Origin: Stappia sp. 28M-7
Lineage (GTDB): Bacteria > Pseudomonadota > Alphaproteobacteria > Rhizobiales > Stappiaceae
Reading direction: 5' to 3'
Assembly (NCBI RefSeq): GCF_014252955.1
Contig: NZ_JACMIA010000001.1
Coordinates: 2,688,258 to 2,752,257 of the forward strand
Length of the DNA: 64,000 nt
How positions within the stretch are numbered: the first letter of the stretch is position 1; each line of letters starts with the position of its first letter. Under the pieces are notes generated by a model. It saw only the letters and a program-made list of their open reading frames with translations. It did not search any database and was not told where the DNA came from. Position numbers and translations under genes: made by a program. Below are positions 8,491 to 13,017 of this stretch, in pieces.

Positions 8491-9504
8491 TCAGCCGTTG
8501 CGGAAGGTGTAGCCGTAGCCGTTCAGGGCCGGCGCGCCGCCCAGATGCGCGTAGAGCACCTTGGAGCCTTCCGGGAAATAGCCCTTCTTGACCAGGTCGA
8601 TCATGCCCTGCATCGACTTGCCCTCGTAGACCGGGTCGGTGATCATGCCCTCGAGGCGCGCGCACAGGCGGATCGCCTCCTTGGTCTCGTCCGACGGCAC
8701 GCCGTAGACCGGGTACGCGTAGTCTTCCACCAGCACCACGTCGTCCTTCTCGATCGGCCGGCCGAGCTCGACCAGCTCCGCCGTGCGCGTGGCGATCTCG
8801 TGCACCTGGTCGCGGGTCTGCTCCGGCGTTGCCGAGGCGTCGATGCCGATGACATTGCGCGCGCGGCCGTCCTTGGCAAAGCCCACCAGCATGCCGGCAT
8901 GGGTGGAGCCGGTCACGGTGCACACGACGATGTAGTCGAACTTGTAGCCGAGCGCCTCTTCCTGCGCCCGCACTTCCTCGGCGAAGCCGACATAGCCGAG
9001 ACCGCCATACTTGTGCACCGAGGCGCCGGCCGGAATCGGATAGGGCTTGCCGCCGGAGGCCTCGACCTCGGCGATCGCGTCTTCCCAGCTACGGCGGATG
9101 CCGATGTCGAAGCCTTCGTCGACCAGGCGCACATCGGCGCCCATGATGCGGCTCAGCATGATGTTGCCGACCCGGTCGTAAACCGCGTCCTCGTGCGGCA
9201 CCCAGCTTTCCTGCACCAGGCGGCACTTGAAGCCGATCTTCGCCGCGACGGCCGCGATCATGCGCGTGTGGTTGGACTGCACGCCGCCGATGGAAACGAG
9301 CGTATCGGCGCCGGAGGCGATGGCATCCGGCACGATGTACTCCAGCTTGCGCAGCTTGTTGCCGCCGAAGGCGAGGCCCGAGTTGCAGTCCTCGCGCTTG
9401 GCATGGATCTCGACCTTGCCGCCCAGATGCTGGGTCAGCCGCTCCAGCTTCTCGATGGGGGTGGGACCGAAGGTCAGCGGATAGCGTTCGAATTTCTCAA
9501 GCAT
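8491..9504 (-). CDS. acdS: 1-aminocyclopropane-1-carboxylate (ACC) deaminase
   Basis: The 337-residue protein is nearly full-length identical in layout to AcdS (338 residues in Pseudomonas putida UW4). It opens ACC, the ethylene precursor of plants, to 2-oxobutyrate and ammonia using PLP. The start at 9504 ([16 protein letters not shown]) matches the family N-terminus; an in-frame start at 9564 adds 20 unrelated residues. The PLP lysine is K50 in [11 protein letters not shown]294 (in [12 protein letters not shown]) and L321 (in [12 protein letters not shown]) are the residues that separate true ACC deaminases from D-cysteine desulfhydrases, so substrate assignment is firm. acdS is divergent from acdR, the classic arrangement. 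The 161-bp spacer between them holds the shared promoters. Confidence 0.96.
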
Positions 9505-9665
9505 GCCTGTCCTCGCCGGTAAGCGCCTCTTGGGGCCTTGTGGAACCGGCGAAAAAGCTAGCAATCGACGAATGAAATGTGCTCTCTAATTTGGCGTCCG
9601 AATTTCCCTTCTGCGCTCATGAACACCTCCATAAGCCCTCTCTTCTTCCGATAAACAGGCCTGAA

Positions 9666-10145
9666 ATGAAAGAACCTTCCAGAGAGGATCGCCTCGACCG
9701 CATCGACCTGAAGATCCTCAAGCTGTTGCAGGAGGATGGCCGGCTGACCAACGCGGAACTGGCGCAGCGCACCAACACCTCGCCGGCCACCTGCCACCGC
9801 CGCACCCAGCGGCTTTTCGCGGAGGGCTATATCAGCGGCGTGCGGGCGATGGTGGCGCCGGACAAGGTCGGGCGCGGCTCGCTGGTCATGGTCGGCGTGG
9901 TGCTGGACCGCTCGACACCGGAGAGCTTCCGCGAGTTCGAGGAGGCGGCGCGCAAGCTCGCCTTCGTACTCGACTGCCACCTGGTTGCCGGCGACTTCGA
10001 CTACATGCTGAAGATTCGCGTGCGCGACATGGCCGACTTCAACCGCCTGCACGGCGACAAGCTGCTCGCCCTGCCCGGCACGCGCCAGACCCGCACCTTC
10101 TTCGTCATCCGGGAAGTGATCGACAACGCTTTGCTGGAGTTTTGA
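9666..10145 (+). CDS. acdR: Lrp/AsnC-family regulator of acdS
   Basis: The 159-residue protein has an N-terminal helix-turn-helix (RIDLKILKLLQEDGRLTNAELAQRTNTSPATCHRR) and a C-terminal AsnC/RAM ligand domain (about 70-155). The ATG at 9666 gives the usual Lrp start; upstream in-frame codons from 9579 lie in the promoter. In other bacteria AcdR is the Lrp-type activator transcribed divergently from acdS and needed for ACC-induced expression; the same layout here supports the assignment. Its binding sites are expected at 9505-9665 but no clear Lrp motif was recognised. An unrelated Lrp-type amino-acid regulator is the alternative, made unlikely by position. Confidence 0.9.
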   Translation: MKEPSREDRLDRIDLKILKLLQEDGRLTNAELAQRTNTSPATCHRRTQRLFAEGYISGVRAMVAPDKVGRGSLVMVGVVLDRSTPESFREFEEAARKLAFVLDCHLVAGDFDYMLKIRVRDMADFNRLHGDKLLALPGTRQTRTFFVIREVIDNALLEF

Positions 10146-10163
10146 GGCGCGACGGGCGCGCTG

Positions 10164-10328
10164 TCAGAGCCGGCCGAGCAACATCAGGATGACCACGATC
10201 AGCAGGATCGTGCCGAGCACACCCACGCCGGCATGGCCGAAGCCGTAGCCGTACCCTCCGAAGCGCCCGCTGAACCCGCCGAGAAGGAAGATGACGAGTA
10301 TGATGATGAGGATTGTGCTGAGGGACAT
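10164..10328 (-). CDS. DUF3309 small membrane protein
   Basis: The 54-residue protein consists of a hydrophobic N-terminal helix (STILIIILVIFLLGG), a Gly/Tyr-rich link (GRFGGYGYGFGHAG) and a second hydrophobic helix ending LLGRL. This is the DUF3309 pattern, common in Alphaproteobacteria and often found near stress genes. The start at 10328 follows an AAGGAGAA ribosome site; the longer reading from 10376 is rejected for that reason. It is the last of the minus-strand small genes downstream of the CsbD gene. No molecular function is established. Confidence 0.8.
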   Translation of the reverse strand: MSLSTILIIILVIFLLGGFSGRFGGYGYGFGHAGVGVLGTILLIVVILMLLGRL

Positions 10329-10409
10329 GGCATTTTCTCCTTGGCAGGGAACGCTCGCCCGCCATACGCGGCTCACGCCTGAAGGGTCCGGGGCGGACGG
10401 CGCGCCGTT

Positions 10410-10553
10410 TCAGTTGCCGTCGATGGTCAGGCCGCGCCTGTCGATGCTGATGTCGATGCCGCTCCGGCCCTCCTCCAGGGCGAGATAGGTAGCACCGGTG
10501 GCCACCACCGCGACGAGCACCCCGATCACCAGGAGGAGGCCTTGTCGGGTCAT
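10410..10553 (-). CDS. Small single-helix membrane protein of unknown function
   Basis: This 47-residue reading frame starts at an ATG at 10553 (MTRQGLLLVIGVLV) and ends at a TGA at 10410. It has one N-terminal transmembrane helix of about 20 residues followed by a short polar tail with alternating charged and hydrophobic residues (IDISIDRRGLTIDGN). It lies between the DUF3309 and CsbD genes on the same strand with short spacers, which supports its being a gene. Similar tiny membrane proteins occur in rhizobia, but no function is known to me. Confidence 0.6.
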   Translation of the reverse strand: MTRQGLLLVIGVLVAVVATGATYLALEEGRSGIDISIDRRGLTIDGN

Positions 10554-10601
10554 TGGACGCTCGCCGATGAGGTTTTGGAACCGGCGCATCGGCCGCGTTC
10601 C

Positions 10602-10775
10602 CTACGCGTCACGAAGCGTATCCTTGATGCTGCCGAGGGTGTTCTGGATGCTCCCCTCGACCTTGTCGGCCTCCCCTTCCGAGCGCAGCTTGGCATCGCC
10701 GAAAGCCTTCCCGGCGACGACCTTGAGCTTGCCCTTGACGACCTTTGCCGACCCGATCACGCGATCCTTGTCCAT
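10602..10775 (-). CDS. CsbD-family stress protein
   Basis: The 57-residue protein starts MDKDRVIGSAKVVKGKLKVVAGKAFGD and ends EGSIQNTLGSIKDTLRDA, the CsbD repeat pattern of a small helical, highly charged protein. In Bacillus subtilis csbD belongs to the general stress regulon; its biochemical role is unknown. The start at 10775 is the family start. A 19-bp sequence identical to one upstream of the gene at 12136-12324 lies 79-97 bp before the start codon (positions 10854-10872) and is a candidate regulator site. Confidence 0.88.
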   Translation of the reverse strand: MDKDRVIGSAKVVKGKLKVVAGKAFGDAKLRSEGEADKVEGSIQNTLGSIKDTLRDA

Positions 10776-10858
10776 GGCCTTGTCCCCTTCGACCGAAAAC
10801 GCCCCGAACATCGTTCGGGCAACACCCGTCAGCTAGCCGGTTTTCTGTCCTCTGCGCA

Positions 10859-10872
10859 CTGACGCAGGTTAG
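10859..10872. promoter_or_regulatory. Candidate Crp/Fnr-type operator upstream of the CsbD gene (copy 1)
   Basis: CTGACGCAGGTTAG has the dyad CTNAC-N4-GTNAG, a 5-4-5 geometry like the FNR site TTGAT-N4-ATCAA. It lies within a 19-bp stretch (10854-10872) repeated exactly at 12481-12499. Confidence 0.65.
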
Positions 10873-10951
10873 TGCGCCCGCCCGCGCCGCTCGAAAGCCG
10901 AGGGCCGGCAGGCACCTGCGCGCTCCGGCCGCCTCGACGGATGCGGCTTGC

Positions 10952-11224
10952 TTATGGGCGCCGGACGGAGTTGCCGCCGGCAATGATCCGGTTGATCAAC
11001 TCGGCGGCGGCCTGGTGCGCTTCCCGGTCCCCTTCCGGGGCAACGGCATTCTCGTGCGCCGCTGCGGCATCGCGCAAAATGCCGAGGATCTCCGCCTCGG
11101 GAAGGAGATTGTGATCGTTGAGGGCGAGCAGGAGCGCCTCGCAGATCGACAGTGCGGCCATCCCCGAGTAGTCTGAATGAGGGGGTATCGACAGGATCCT
11201 TTCCGGCGGCGAGTGATCGGTCAC
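10952..11224 (-). CDS. Conserved protein of unknown function, 90 residues
   Basis: The protein starts MTDHSPPERILSIPPHSDYSG and contains SICEALLLALNDHNLLPEAEILGILRDAAAAHE, followed by an amphipathic helix (EAHQAAAELINRII). It is soluble and mainly helical. I have the impression that the ICEALLLAL segment recurs in small rhizobial proteins found near stress or oxygen-response genes, but no function can be named. It is divergent from the Crp/Fnr gene across a 113-bp spacer, so it may be a target of that regulator. Confidence 0.7.
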   Translation of the reverse strand: MTDHSPPERILSIPPHSDYSGMAALSICEALLLALNDHNLLPEAEILGILRDAAAAHENAVAPEGDREAHQAAAELINRIIAGGNSVRRP

Positions 11225-11337
11225 GACAGAATTTCGCTGCCGGACACGACTCTACGGGCAAGCACGGATCGCCGGACTGATCGAAAGCAGCTGTCGTTCC
11301 GGCTTTCCCTCGATCCTCCAAGGGACGGCCGAAGTTC

Positions 11338-12072
11338 ATGAACACGAGGCACGCATCCCCGCTCGCCCGAAAGCTCTCGGCCTTTGTCGCCCTTTCGCAG
11401 GCCGAGCTCGAGATGCTGGAGCGTCTGCACGAACGTCGTCGGACCTTCGCCGCGGGGCGCGATCTCGTGCACCAGGGGCAGTCCGATCAGGCCGCCTACA
11501 TCCTCTCCTCGGGCTGGGTCTGTTCGTACAAGATCCAGACGGACGGAACGCGTCAGATCGTCGACTTCCAGATACCGGGGGATTTCCTGGGGCTGCGCAG
11601 CGTCCTGCTGCGCACCTCGGATCACAGCTTCGAGCCGATCATGGAGATCCACGCCGCCGAAGTTCTGGTGAGCGACCTTCTGGAGGCCTTCGCGCAGACA
11701 CCCCGCCTGGCGACGGCCATTCTCTGGGCCGCCTCGCGGGACGAGGCGATGGTGGTCGAGCATCTCGTGGGCATCGGGCGCCGCGACGCGGAAGCCCGGA
11801 TGGCGCATTTCCTGCTCGAACTGCATGCGCGGCTGGCGCTGGTCGGGATGGGCACCAGGGACGGCTACCCCTGCCCACTCACCCAGTATCACCTCGCCGA
11901 CGCCCTGGGCCTGAGTGCGGTGCATGTGAACCGCGTCCTGCGCAAGCTGCGTGATAGCGGGCTCGTCACCTTCCGCGATGGCCATGTGACATTCGACGAC
12001 TACGGCGCTCTGGTGGCCTTCGCGGAGTTCGACCCGATGTATCTGGACCAGGGCGGCCCGCTGCTGAAATGA
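11338..12072 (+). CDS. Crp/Fnr-family transcriptional regulator
   Basis: The 244-residue protein has an N-terminal cyclic-nucleotide-type beta-barrel (about 15-130; FAAGRDLVHQGQ, IVDFQIPGDFLGL), a dimer helix (about 135-165) and a C-terminal winged helix (about 170-235). No FNR cysteine cluster is present at the N-terminus, so it does not look like an Fe-S oxygen sensor. The recognition helix is L192-SAVHVNRVLRKL. Compared with FNR it keeps the Arg (R199), but has Val at the Glu position and Asn at the Ser position, implying a different operator. Two copies of a CTNAC-N4-GTNAG dyad flank the gene at 10859 and 12486 and are good candidates for its sites. The signal it senses is unknown. Confidence 0.88.
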   Translation: MNTRHASPLARKLSAFVALSQAELEMLERLHERRRTFAAGRDLVHQGQSDQAAYILSSGWVCSYKIQTDGTRQIVDFQIPGDFLGLRSVLLRTSDHSFEPIMEIHAAEVLVSDLLEAFAQTPRLATAILWAASRDEAMVVEHLVGIGRRDAEARMAHFLLELHARLALVGMGTRDGYPCPLTQYHLADALGLSAVHVNRVLRKLRDSGLVTFRDGHVTFDDYGALVAFAEFDPMYLDQGGPLLK

Positions 12073-12080
12073 ACAAGACC

Positions 12081-12101
12081 GCCCGCCGTCGAACGGCGGG
12101 C
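12081..12101. terminator. Hairpin between the Crp/Fnr gene and the convergent small gene
   Basis: A perfect 9-bp stem (GCCCGCCGT / ACGGCGGGC) with a CGA loop starts 8 bases after the regulator stop codon. There is no T-run. Confidence 0.55.
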
Positions 12102-12135
12102 GACCCGGCAGTCACGTCAGCTCAGACAGCACGTA

Positions 12136-12324
12136 TCACCCAAGGGCGCGGGTCGTCGCGTCGAGTTCCTTCATCGCATCGGCGTGGTTGTTCGCCGTCT
12201 GCGCGGTCTCGGCAGCCTTGTAGTGCTTGAAAGCCGCATCCTTCTTCGGGCCTGCCGGGGCCTTGTCCCAGGCAGCCTTGACGGAGGTCATCTTCTCGGT
12301 GACGTTGTTGCGGTCGGGTGTCAT
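12136..12324 (-). CDS. Small conserved helical protein of unknown function, 62 residues
   Basis: Starting MTPDRNNVTEKMTSVKAAWDKAPAGPKKDAAFKHY and ending DAMKELDATTRALG, the protein is soluble, rich in Ala and Lys and mostly helical. The start at 12324 has an AAAGGGAC ribosome site; the longer reading from 12459 runs through the promoter. The TGA lies at 12136. The sequence resembles small rhizobial proteins without known function. The same 19-bp element found before the CsbD gene lies 157-175 bp upstream (12481-12499), suggesting co-regulation. Confidence 0.7.
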   Translation of the reverse strand: MTPDRNNVTEKMTSVKAAWDKAPAGPKKDAAFKHYKAAETAQTANNHADAMKELDATTRALG

Positions 12325-12485
12325 GAAATGTCCCTTTCTGGACCATCCGGGAAGCTGAAAGCGCCAGGACAGCGCGGTTCCGTGAAGGAGCCTCGCCACA
12401 AGTGCTTTCGCGTTTTCCGGAAGTGCGTGCCACCGGTCATCCGGCGGGCACGTCCACACTCAATCGCAATATCGGCTCCGGCGCA

Positions 12486-12499
12486 CTGACGCAGGTTAG
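12486..12499. promoter_or_regulatory. Candidate Crp/Fnr-type operator (copy 2)
   Basis: A second exact copy of CTGACGCAGGTTAG inside the 19-bp identical sequence at 12481-12499. It is upstream of the 62-residue protein gene and in the same orientation relative to its target as copy 1. Confidence 0.65.
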
Positions 12500-12604
12500 C
12501 CCTGCCCGGTTTTGCGCGCAGCCAACGACCGGACCCGGATGCGCACGGCATCCCATGCCCTGCATGTGCGGGGGAAGGACAGGTTTGGCCGTACAAGGGA
12601 AAAA

Positions 12605-12680
12605 TGGCGACCCCGGCAGGATTCGAACCTGCGACCATCGGCTTAGAAGGCCGGTGCTCTATCCACTGAGCTACGGGGCC
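12605..12680 (-). tRNA. tRNA-Arg (TCT)
   Basis: The 76-nt cloverleaf reads on the minus strand from GGCCCCGTAGCTCAG to an encoded CCA. The anticodon loop CTTCTAA gives TCT, and the T-loop is GGTTCGAATCC. The acceptor stem pairs over 7 bp with one G-U. Confidence 0.97.
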
Positions 12681-12711
12681 GTTCCGGCGCGCGCGGCGCG
12701 AGGATCGCGGC

Positions 12712-13017
12712 TCAATGCGTCCAGGGCATGAAGCGATCGAAACGGAAATTGTCCGAATAAGCGATCTTCGGCACGCGGCGCGAGCGCGGCTGCTCCACCC
12801 GATAGGCGATGCCGTTCTTGCGGGCGTAGGCTTCCGCCTCTTCCTGCGTCTCGAAGCGCAGGCGCAACTGCTGCTTCATGTCGGTGGAGGACGTGTAGCC
12901 CATCAGCGGCTCGATCGTGCGCGCCTGCTCCGGCTCGAACTCCAGCACCCAGTCATGGGTCTTGCCGCGCCCCGACTGCGTTGCCGTCTTCGCCGGGGAA
13001 TAGATGCGTGCGACCAT
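12712..13017 (-). CDS. NDUFS4-like accessory subunit of respiratory complex I
   Basis: The 101-residue protein starts MVARIYSPAKTATQSGR and contains HDWVLEFEP, EPLMGYTSSTDMKQQLRLRF, EEAEAYARKNG and a basic C-terminal stretch before YSDNFRFDRFMPWTH. This is the ETC complex I (NDUFA4/NDUFS4, 18-kDa) family, an accessory NADH dehydrogenase subunit that alphaproteobacteria share with mitochondria. The length is typical and the start is the family start. It is monocistronic, between tRNA-Arg and tRNA-Pro, and far from a nuo operon, as in other Hyphomicrobiales. Confidence 0.92.
   Translation of the reverse strand: MVARIYSPAKTATQSGRGKTHDWVLEFEPEQARTIEPLMGYTSSTDMKQQLRLRFETQEEAEAYARKNGIAYRVEQPRSRRVPKIAYSDNFRFDRFMPWTH

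Follow-up and report, generated by a model that had tools for sequence, protein, structure and literature searches.

A 19-bp repeat as the probable operator of a Crp/Fnr-type regulator in an inserted block of Stappia sp. 28M-7

Described Crp/Fnr systems and the regulator of this locus

Several described Crp/Fnr proteins invite comparison with the system reported here, a 19-bp repeat with a regulator gene between its two copies in Stappia sp. 28M-7 (contig NZ_JACMIA010000001.1, positions 2,688,258 to 2,752,257; this whole stretch of 64,000 nucleotides is the window to which our coordinates refer). FNR and FnrL are oxygen-sensing iron-sulfur activators of the TTGAT-N4-ATCAA box, and the contact residues of FNR are Glu209, Ser212 and Arg213 (PMC4505428). 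The FNR/DNR sites of Dinoroseobacter shibae include TTGAC-N4-GTTAA and TTAAC-N4-GTCAA at -41.5, those of Dnr fronting denitrification genes such as nosR2 and norC (PMC5398030). CprK of Desulfitobacterium has Val at the position of Glu209 and binds a TTAAT-N4-ATTAA box, in which the third half-site base is read as A where FNR has G (PMC2610375). In the Stappia locus the repeat is very probably the operator of the regulator encoded between its copies, which would act as a class II activator of a csbD operon and of a gene for a 62-residue protein, and the whole would constitute a mobile module.

The regulator combines a cNMP-binding-like domain with a following Crp-type helix-turn-helix, both exceeding the Pfam gathering scores (Table 1), which places it in the Crp/Fnr superfamily. 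It reaches no NCBIfam cut-off: the best family match is to Fnr (76.8 bits versus a cut-off of 228), and the equivalogs for CRP (32.4 bits versus 266), FixK and FnrL (56.3 and 50.5 bits versus 300) likewise remain under theirs. The recognition helix, SAVHVNR, spans residues 193-199, and its Val195, His196, Asn198 and Arg199 align without gaps with Glu209, Thr210, Ser212 and Arg213 of FNR, whose type of helix reads ETISR. His196, Asn198 and Arg199 are found in 106 of 106 sequences, and position 195 is Val in 85 and Ile in 21 of them. The FNR recognition triad is replaced by Val/Ile, Asn and Arg throughout, the Arg alone being kept, and the alignment confirms the preliminary description, which had noted from this one protein that the helix lacks the Glu and Ser of FNR and retains the Arg. 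There is no FNR-type N-terminal cysteine cluster, the only cysteines being Cys62 and Cys179; the latter and His96 are identical in 106 of 106 sequences. The preliminary description knew of no described site of this kind, and we too found no description of site or regulator among the open-licence PMC papers listed, the site and helix strings themselves giving no paper; the regulator is apparently an undescribed Crp/Fnr-type switch protein.

With FNR and FnrL it shares the fold, the domains, the 5-4-5 dyad, the class II spacing and the helix Arg, and it differs from them in the outer C/G of its predicted sites, in Val/Ile for Glu209, in Asn for Ser212 and in the missing cysteine cluster. Compared with CTGAC-N4-GTTAG and CTAAC-N4-GTCAG, the sites of Dnr, a Crp/Fnr protein of the Rhodobacterales, are changed in the outermost base pair alone, which is T/A in the D. 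shibae sites (PMC5398030). CprK, like the present regulator (Val or Ile), departs from Glu at the 209 position and has a changed third half-site base, but the outer T of its box contrasts with the outer CT and the prevalent C at the fifth place seen here (PMC2610375), and its halophenol ligand and its targets are different as well. CrpK of Rhodobacter sphaeroides (RSP_2572) is likened by description, as another Rhodobacterales Crp/Fnr protein without N-terminal cysteines; unlike the present regulator, it is predicted to share the FnrL targets in photosynthesis and respiration (PMC4344238).

The repeated element, its promoters and its distribution

The sequence GCGCACTGACGCAGGTTAG is present in two exact copies, at 10854-10872 and 12481-12499, both on the plus strand. 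These had been recognized in the preliminary description, and the inner pattern CTNAC-N4-GTNAG that it gave, together with its placement of the CsbD gene, the 62-residue gene and the Crp/Fnr protein, is correct. With up to 3 mismatches allowed, the window contains these 2 matches against 0.01 expected from shuffles and no third copy, and the whole 5.13-Mb genome adds a single match carrying 3 mismatches; the exact repeat is not due to chance. Copy 1 belongs to a 24-bp imperfect palindrome, GCGCACTGAC-GCAG-GTTAGTGCGC (10854-10877), in which 18 of the 24 bases equal the reverse complement. Read towards the minus-strand gene downstream of each, both copies give CTAACCTGCGTCAG, the dyad centre lying 90 bp upstream of the csbD start in predicted operator 1 and 168 bp upstream of the start codon of the 62-residue gene in predicted operator 2. 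Operator 1 is conserved in genome G002 (locus L005). The bare degenerate pattern is not enriched in the window (2 versus 0.39 expected, with at least 2 in 7 of 100 shuffles), so that the full sequence and the relatives have to supply the evidence.

A search with the regulator gave 475 relatives, and the best 80 loci were kept (80-85% identity, mostly Rhodobacterales by title). CTNAC-N4-GTNAG was found at 180 places in 70 of the 80, as against 2 places for the reversed pattern in the same 643 kb, and 44 loci carry three sites. In 177 of the 180 sites a CTGAC half is combined with a half that reads CTAAC or CTTAC. The sites also keep their places relative to genes, the commonest being one at the position of window copy 2, before the 62-residue gene, seen in 60 sequences (window included), with the dyad centre 165-172 bp ahead of the start codon in 57 of them, and a pair between two divergent operons, with 58 sites each, 120-126 bp ahead of a conserved 104-residue gene and 84-136 bp ahead of a 141-residue gene. 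Other Crp genes of the same genus, sampled at 26 loci (L008-L033), have no match to the operator. Around regulator homologues of 60-79% identity (L132-L145), most loci show drifted operators such as CTGAT-N4-ATCAG, many of them keeping the -10 spacing described below.

The 87 loci and the window provided 194 sites in 76 sequences; 193 of these, fully flanked (one dropped; 181 unique), were given an orientation according to how they matched the consensus. Their alignment yielded the oriented consensus GNACTRACMTGYGTMAGYGC and, at 30-35 bp from the dyad centre, a further conserved element, T83% A72% NNN T59%. When the promoters were grouped by downstream sequence, 15 of the 22 clusters had a TA at exactly +30 relative to the dyad centre, with no other distance accounting for more than 3. 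A diverged set of 20 loci with regulators of 60-80% identity (four of which, L116, L117, L119 and L120, are also in the first set) contains 33 CTNAY-N4-RTNAG sites, for example CTGATCTGGATCAG, and here TA occurs at +30, in either direction, in 19 of the 33, the next best distance having 4. A -10 box some 30 bp from the dyad centre places that centre at about -41.5. This is the classical position of class II activators and is known for FNR, and the corresponding start of the -10 hexamer is thus seen in the 15 clusters and the 19 diverged sites of the relatives. A Roseibium aggregatum plasmid (L116) bears variant sites CTAACYTCGATCAG at 9935 and 11590, the former with TAAGAT at the expected -10 place. 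In one class of plus-strand promoters (for example L115, 11174-11260) the cluster consensus has its -10 element enclosed by an inverted repeat of 12 bp, CAGTCGAACGAT ... ATCGTTCGACTG, which is perhaps the site of a second regulator or an RNA hairpin.

Two findings would, according to the preliminary description, refute its proposal: that the motif is scattered at random, or that it is missing near the regulator's orthologues. The 70 occupied loci run counter to the latter, and whole genomes to the former. A search of 24 genomes or records located CTRACMTGYGTMAG in 23 of them, at 73 places altogether, and 0 matches to the reversed control in any of the 24; 57 of the 73 places fall within stretches of 3.7 to 8.7 kb around a regulator gene. 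Among the remainder, one is about 0.6 kb beyond the regulator locus (G024), three are on another contig of G029 and 12 are elsewhere. For this recount contigs were matched by coordinates, and the coincidences G024:C17 and G029:C34 were counted as outside, since no site is present at these positions in the loci themselves. The 12 places elsewhere all have the symmetric form CTGAC...GTCAG, a form taken by 0 of the 180 in-locus sites.

Co-occurrence was further assessed in 120 genomes drawn from one family, that of G017, four of them (G014, G015, G017 and G026) already known from the first search, with regulator homologues accepted at E<=1e-50. The operator CTAACMTGYGTCAG is present in 17 and a regulator homologue in 26 of these genomes, all 17 being among the 26; it is seen in 17 of 26 genomes with the regulator and in 0 of the 94 that lack it (Fisher p 1.6e-14, with no correction for relatedness). 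In the other nine regulator genomes, where the exact operator is missing, the homologues have 63-78% identity. Within the window's own genus CTAACMTGYGTCAG is found in 2 of 14 genomes, both with a regulator orthologue of 92-100%, and two further genomes with a homologue of 71-72% have no operator.

The outermost base pair distinguishes these sites from FNR boxes. With the same inner pattern and T in second place, the counts over the 80 loci are CT 205, TT 9, AT 15 and GT 13, those over the 20 diverged loci are CT 33, TT 7, AT 5 and GT 12, and the CT pair is found 0 times in the 26 loci of other Crp genes. On the assumption that the sites belong to the regulator, the excess of CT (205) over TT (9) sets them apart from the TTGAT-N4-ATCAA type, and the most apt description of the predicted operator is an FNR box whose outer T/A is replaced by C/G. 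The third half-site base at these operators is A, G or T. We infer that loss of the Glu may relax position 3 of the half-site and that Asn for Ser may go with C at position 1. Asn in place of Ser212 together with C for T at the outer position would be a candidate residue-to-base case for a change of Crp/Fnr specificity, a long-standing question.

Proposed mechanism and alternatives

We propose that the 19-bp repeat serves as operator for the Crp/Fnr protein whose gene lies between the two copies, and that a dimer of this regulator would bind the dyad, which is CTNAY-N4-RTNAG in its generic form and, in the window's lineage, GNACTRACMTGYGTMAGYGC read towards the gene. With the dyad centred about 41.5 bp upstream of the transcription start, the regulator would activate RNA polymerase as a class II activator and switch on the csbD operon (csbD, the 59-residue gene and the DUF3309 gene) and the 62-residue gene, including the structured leader of the latter. 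Together with its targets and operators, the regulator would make up a single self-contained module moving en bloc, 2.4 kb long beside tRNA-Arg in this genome and part of larger stress islands, several of them on plasmids, in Rhodobacterales. The operator assignment is drawn from the conservation and orientation of the sites, the -10 spacing fixed in most relatives, the co-occurrence with the regulator, the invariant helix and the insertion; binding of the dyads by the regulator, activation rather than repression, the small-gene operons and an output in stress protection are predictions. The label 'stress' is given because of gene content, namely CsbD here and GroEL, HflKC and NhaA in relatives, and with this qualification the stress regulon with a non-canonical operator that had been suggested from the window is supported by the 70 of 80 loci and by the 0 of 94 regulator-free genomes.

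Somewhat less firmly, we favour a broader view in which the regulator would stand for an undescribed Crp/Fnr branch that reads an operator code of its own, CTNAY-N4-RTNAG, determined by the Val/Ile and Asn of the recognition helix. It would serve a mobile stress-tolerance island, found in Rhodobacterales and their neighbours, as dedicated activator, and regulator and operator would travel as a portable module coupled to a conserved structured leader RNA on the 62-residue target. A predicted operator, promoter architecture and target set would thereby be assigned to a widespread branch from sequence alone, and the stress block would bring its own small regulon into new hosts. As the pairing of regulator and operator recurs in many relatives and plasmids, this apparently undescribed regulator is directly testable.

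Several observations weigh against the proposed mechanism. Ten of the 80 orthologue loci are free of the exact motif within the stretches examined (L041, L049, L051, L080-L083, L098, L105 and L107); three of them (L049, L080 and L098) have a CTNAY-N4-RTNAG variant and the other seven none, and no such dyad was found in the diverged loci with regulators of 70-75% (L143, L006 and L007) nor in L137 and L142. Not every one of the 22 promoter clusters counts as independent, since divergent copies of the same promoters make up several singletons, and the window's own two promoters fit the class II spacing only in part, one having its TA at +31 and the other no TA. In G057 site and regulator are on different contigs, and in G116 they are about 11.6 kb apart. 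Other outer pairs are also frequent around the inner pattern, with GC 89, GG 74 and GA 62 versus CT 205 in the 80 loci, and in the diverged loci GC (35) tops CT (33), the G+C-rich background not being corrected; hence the outer base there is carried by the -10 evidence and not by counts alone. The genome-wide search suggested in the preliminary description showed no enrichment of bare CTNAC-N4-GTNAG, with 14 places versus 35 for the reversed pattern, and the predicted regulon is a local one, which comprises two promoters in this genome and does not extend genome-wide. Of the 14 places, the 12 beyond the window are taken as chance matches; among the 6 inspected, none has a TA at +30 in either direction, and each lies under at least one open frame of at least 120 codons from stop to stop, to which little weight attaches in G+C-rich DNA. 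Finally, no full operator was found in the regulator's own promoter. The weak operator-like dyad upstream of the regulator (Table 1) lies within a block, cTAtGcTGgACTGATCcAgAGCAGT, that is highly conserved upstream of 88 orthologous regulator sequences, and in which a -10-like TATGCT directly precedes the dyad. This would fit negative autoregulation, and autoregulation through this dyad is possible.

The dyads could instead belong to another, housekeeping Crp/Fnr regulator of the FnrL, Dnr or FixK type controlling the same genes, given that the genus has other Crp/Fnr genes and that the D. shibae FNR/DNR sites are removed from the operator by just the outermost base pair (PMC5398030). Against this, the FNR-like outer TT is rare at the regulator loci (9 versus CT 205), the operator is missing from all 94 family genomes that lack the regulator and from the 26 loci of other Crp genes, and, among the matches listed, the FNR-type TTRAC-N4-GTYAA is spread over many contigs while the CT form clusters at the regulator locus. 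We regard this explanation as very unlikely. Crp/Fnr proteins can also repress, but repression by the same regulator, with the -10 spacing arising from promoter overlap and not from activation, is unlikely; against it, the dyad is at about -41.5 in most promoters with a recognizable -10, the classical place of a class II activator (see also PMC5398030).

That the repeat might serve recombination or mobility of the inserted block is suggested by the presence of both copies inside this block beside a tRNA gene. The copies (10854 and 12481) are nevertheless not at the ends of the block (10152-12600), both point towards gene starts, and relatives can have as many as four, differently flanked and in most cases accompanied by a -10-like element at a fixed distance, which makes a mobility repeat most improbable. 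A functionless chance duplication of an upstream stretch would agree with the lack of enrichment of the bare pattern in this genome, but it is scarcely credible in view of an operator conserved over 70 orthologue loci and co-occurring with the regulator.

Target genes, structured leader and inserted block

Table 1. Features of the inserted block and its border, in window coordinates
Feature	Positions	Strand	Remarks
Inserted block	10152..12600	.	2.4 kb; csbD operon, 90-residue gene, regulator, 62-residue gene, both operators
DUF3309 gene, 55 residues	10164..10331	-	Pfam PF11752, 3.6e-10
59-residue open frame behind csbD	10410..10589	-	open-frame listing; no Pfam or NCBIfam match at E<=0.001
csbD, 57 residues, first gene behind operator 1	10602..10775	-	Pfam CsbD PF05532, 2.4e-15
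Predicted -10 of csbD promoter	10830..10835	-	TAGCTG; TA at 31 bp from dyad centre
Operator 1 (predicted)	10854..10877	-	core CTAACCTGCGTCAG at 10872-10859; exact repeat and palindrome
90-residue gene, divergent from regulator	10952..11224	-	homologue in 85 of 91 sequences (window included)
Weak operator-like dyad upstream of regulator	11277..11290	+	CTGAT-N4-AGCAG (with flanks ACTGAT-N4-AGCAGT)
Crp/Fnr-family regulator, 244 residues	11338..12072	+	Pfam HTH_Crp_2 (PF13545) 4.2e-15, cNMP_binding (PF00027) 4.3e-12
62-residue gene behind operator 2	12136..12324	-	homologue in 77 of 91 sequences (window included)
Structured 5' leader of 62-residue gene	12325..12451	-	about 127 nt; start predicted
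Expected -10 place of 62-residue gene	12458..12463	-	TTGAGT, without the TA common in relatives
Operator 2 (predicted)	12481..12499	-	core CTAACCTGCGTCAG at 12499-12486; exact repeat
tRNA-Arg(tct)	12605..12680	-	ARAGORN; block adjoins its 3' side

Judging by its spacing, the 59-residue frame probably belongs to the csbD operon, of which the DUF3309 gene is probably the last member. The 62-residue protein has no Pfam or NCBIfam match at E<=0.001. Its gene is preceded by a leader for which an alignment (A1) of the window and 51 relatives, that is 52 distinct leaders out of 58 with a spacing of 160-175 bp, gives a structure of 24 pairs in which 97.2% of the cells are paired and 9 of the 24 pairs show compensatory change. 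None of 500 shuffles reaches either the pairing or the compensatory value; the shuffles make no correction for relatedness, and the structure was derived from that alignment itself. In folding, the leader in the window surpasses its shuffles by 2.8 standard deviations and the short csbD leader is unremarkable (z -0.7); an Rfam scan of 10100-12600 gave no family at E<=1. A terminal GUCC...GGAC hairpin is predicted to cover the likely Shine-Dalgarno region of the 62-residue gene, and could possibly act as a temperature-sensitive switch.

The 2.4-kb block is absent from the same place in two relatives, G001, which has 250 bp instead, and G007, with about 80 bp, both flanks aligning at 93-98%. Other DNA occupies the same tRNA-Arg(tct) place in G011 (about 12 kb; L130) and G008 (about 2.1 kb; L131), and with near-empty sites in G001 and G007 the place looks like an insertion hotspot in the genus. 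Attachment-site repeats at the block ends were sought by comparing 10101-10300 with 12301-12720, and were rejected as the sole 11-base match (10106 and 12344) does not flank the block.

The transmissible locus of stress tolerance (tLST), or locus of heat resistance, is a mobile cluster of protein-quality and ion-antiport genes. The islands of the relatives recall it in general description, with GroEL, HflKC, NhaA and desaturase in varying combinations. On seven annotated plasmid stretches the regulator has as neighbours differing combinations of groES-groEL, nhaA, fatty acid desaturase, hflK-hflC and transglutaminase genes, and over 91 sequences, within the limits of flank length, groEL is near the regulator in 40, desaturase in 21, hflK in 16, nhaA in 14 and csbD in 4, the window and G002 being among the last. 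In L115 a site precedes a plus-strand gene run ending in hflK-hflC, and hflK is within 2.5 kb of 11 of the 58 sites of this type; directly before groES-groEL of L115 no operator-type site was found. At 8491-10145 of the window lies a frame beside what we take, from the translation, to be an Lrp/AsnC-type regulator; the frame itself presumably resembles 1-aminocyclopropane-1-carboxylate (ACC) deaminase or D-cysteine desulfhydrase.

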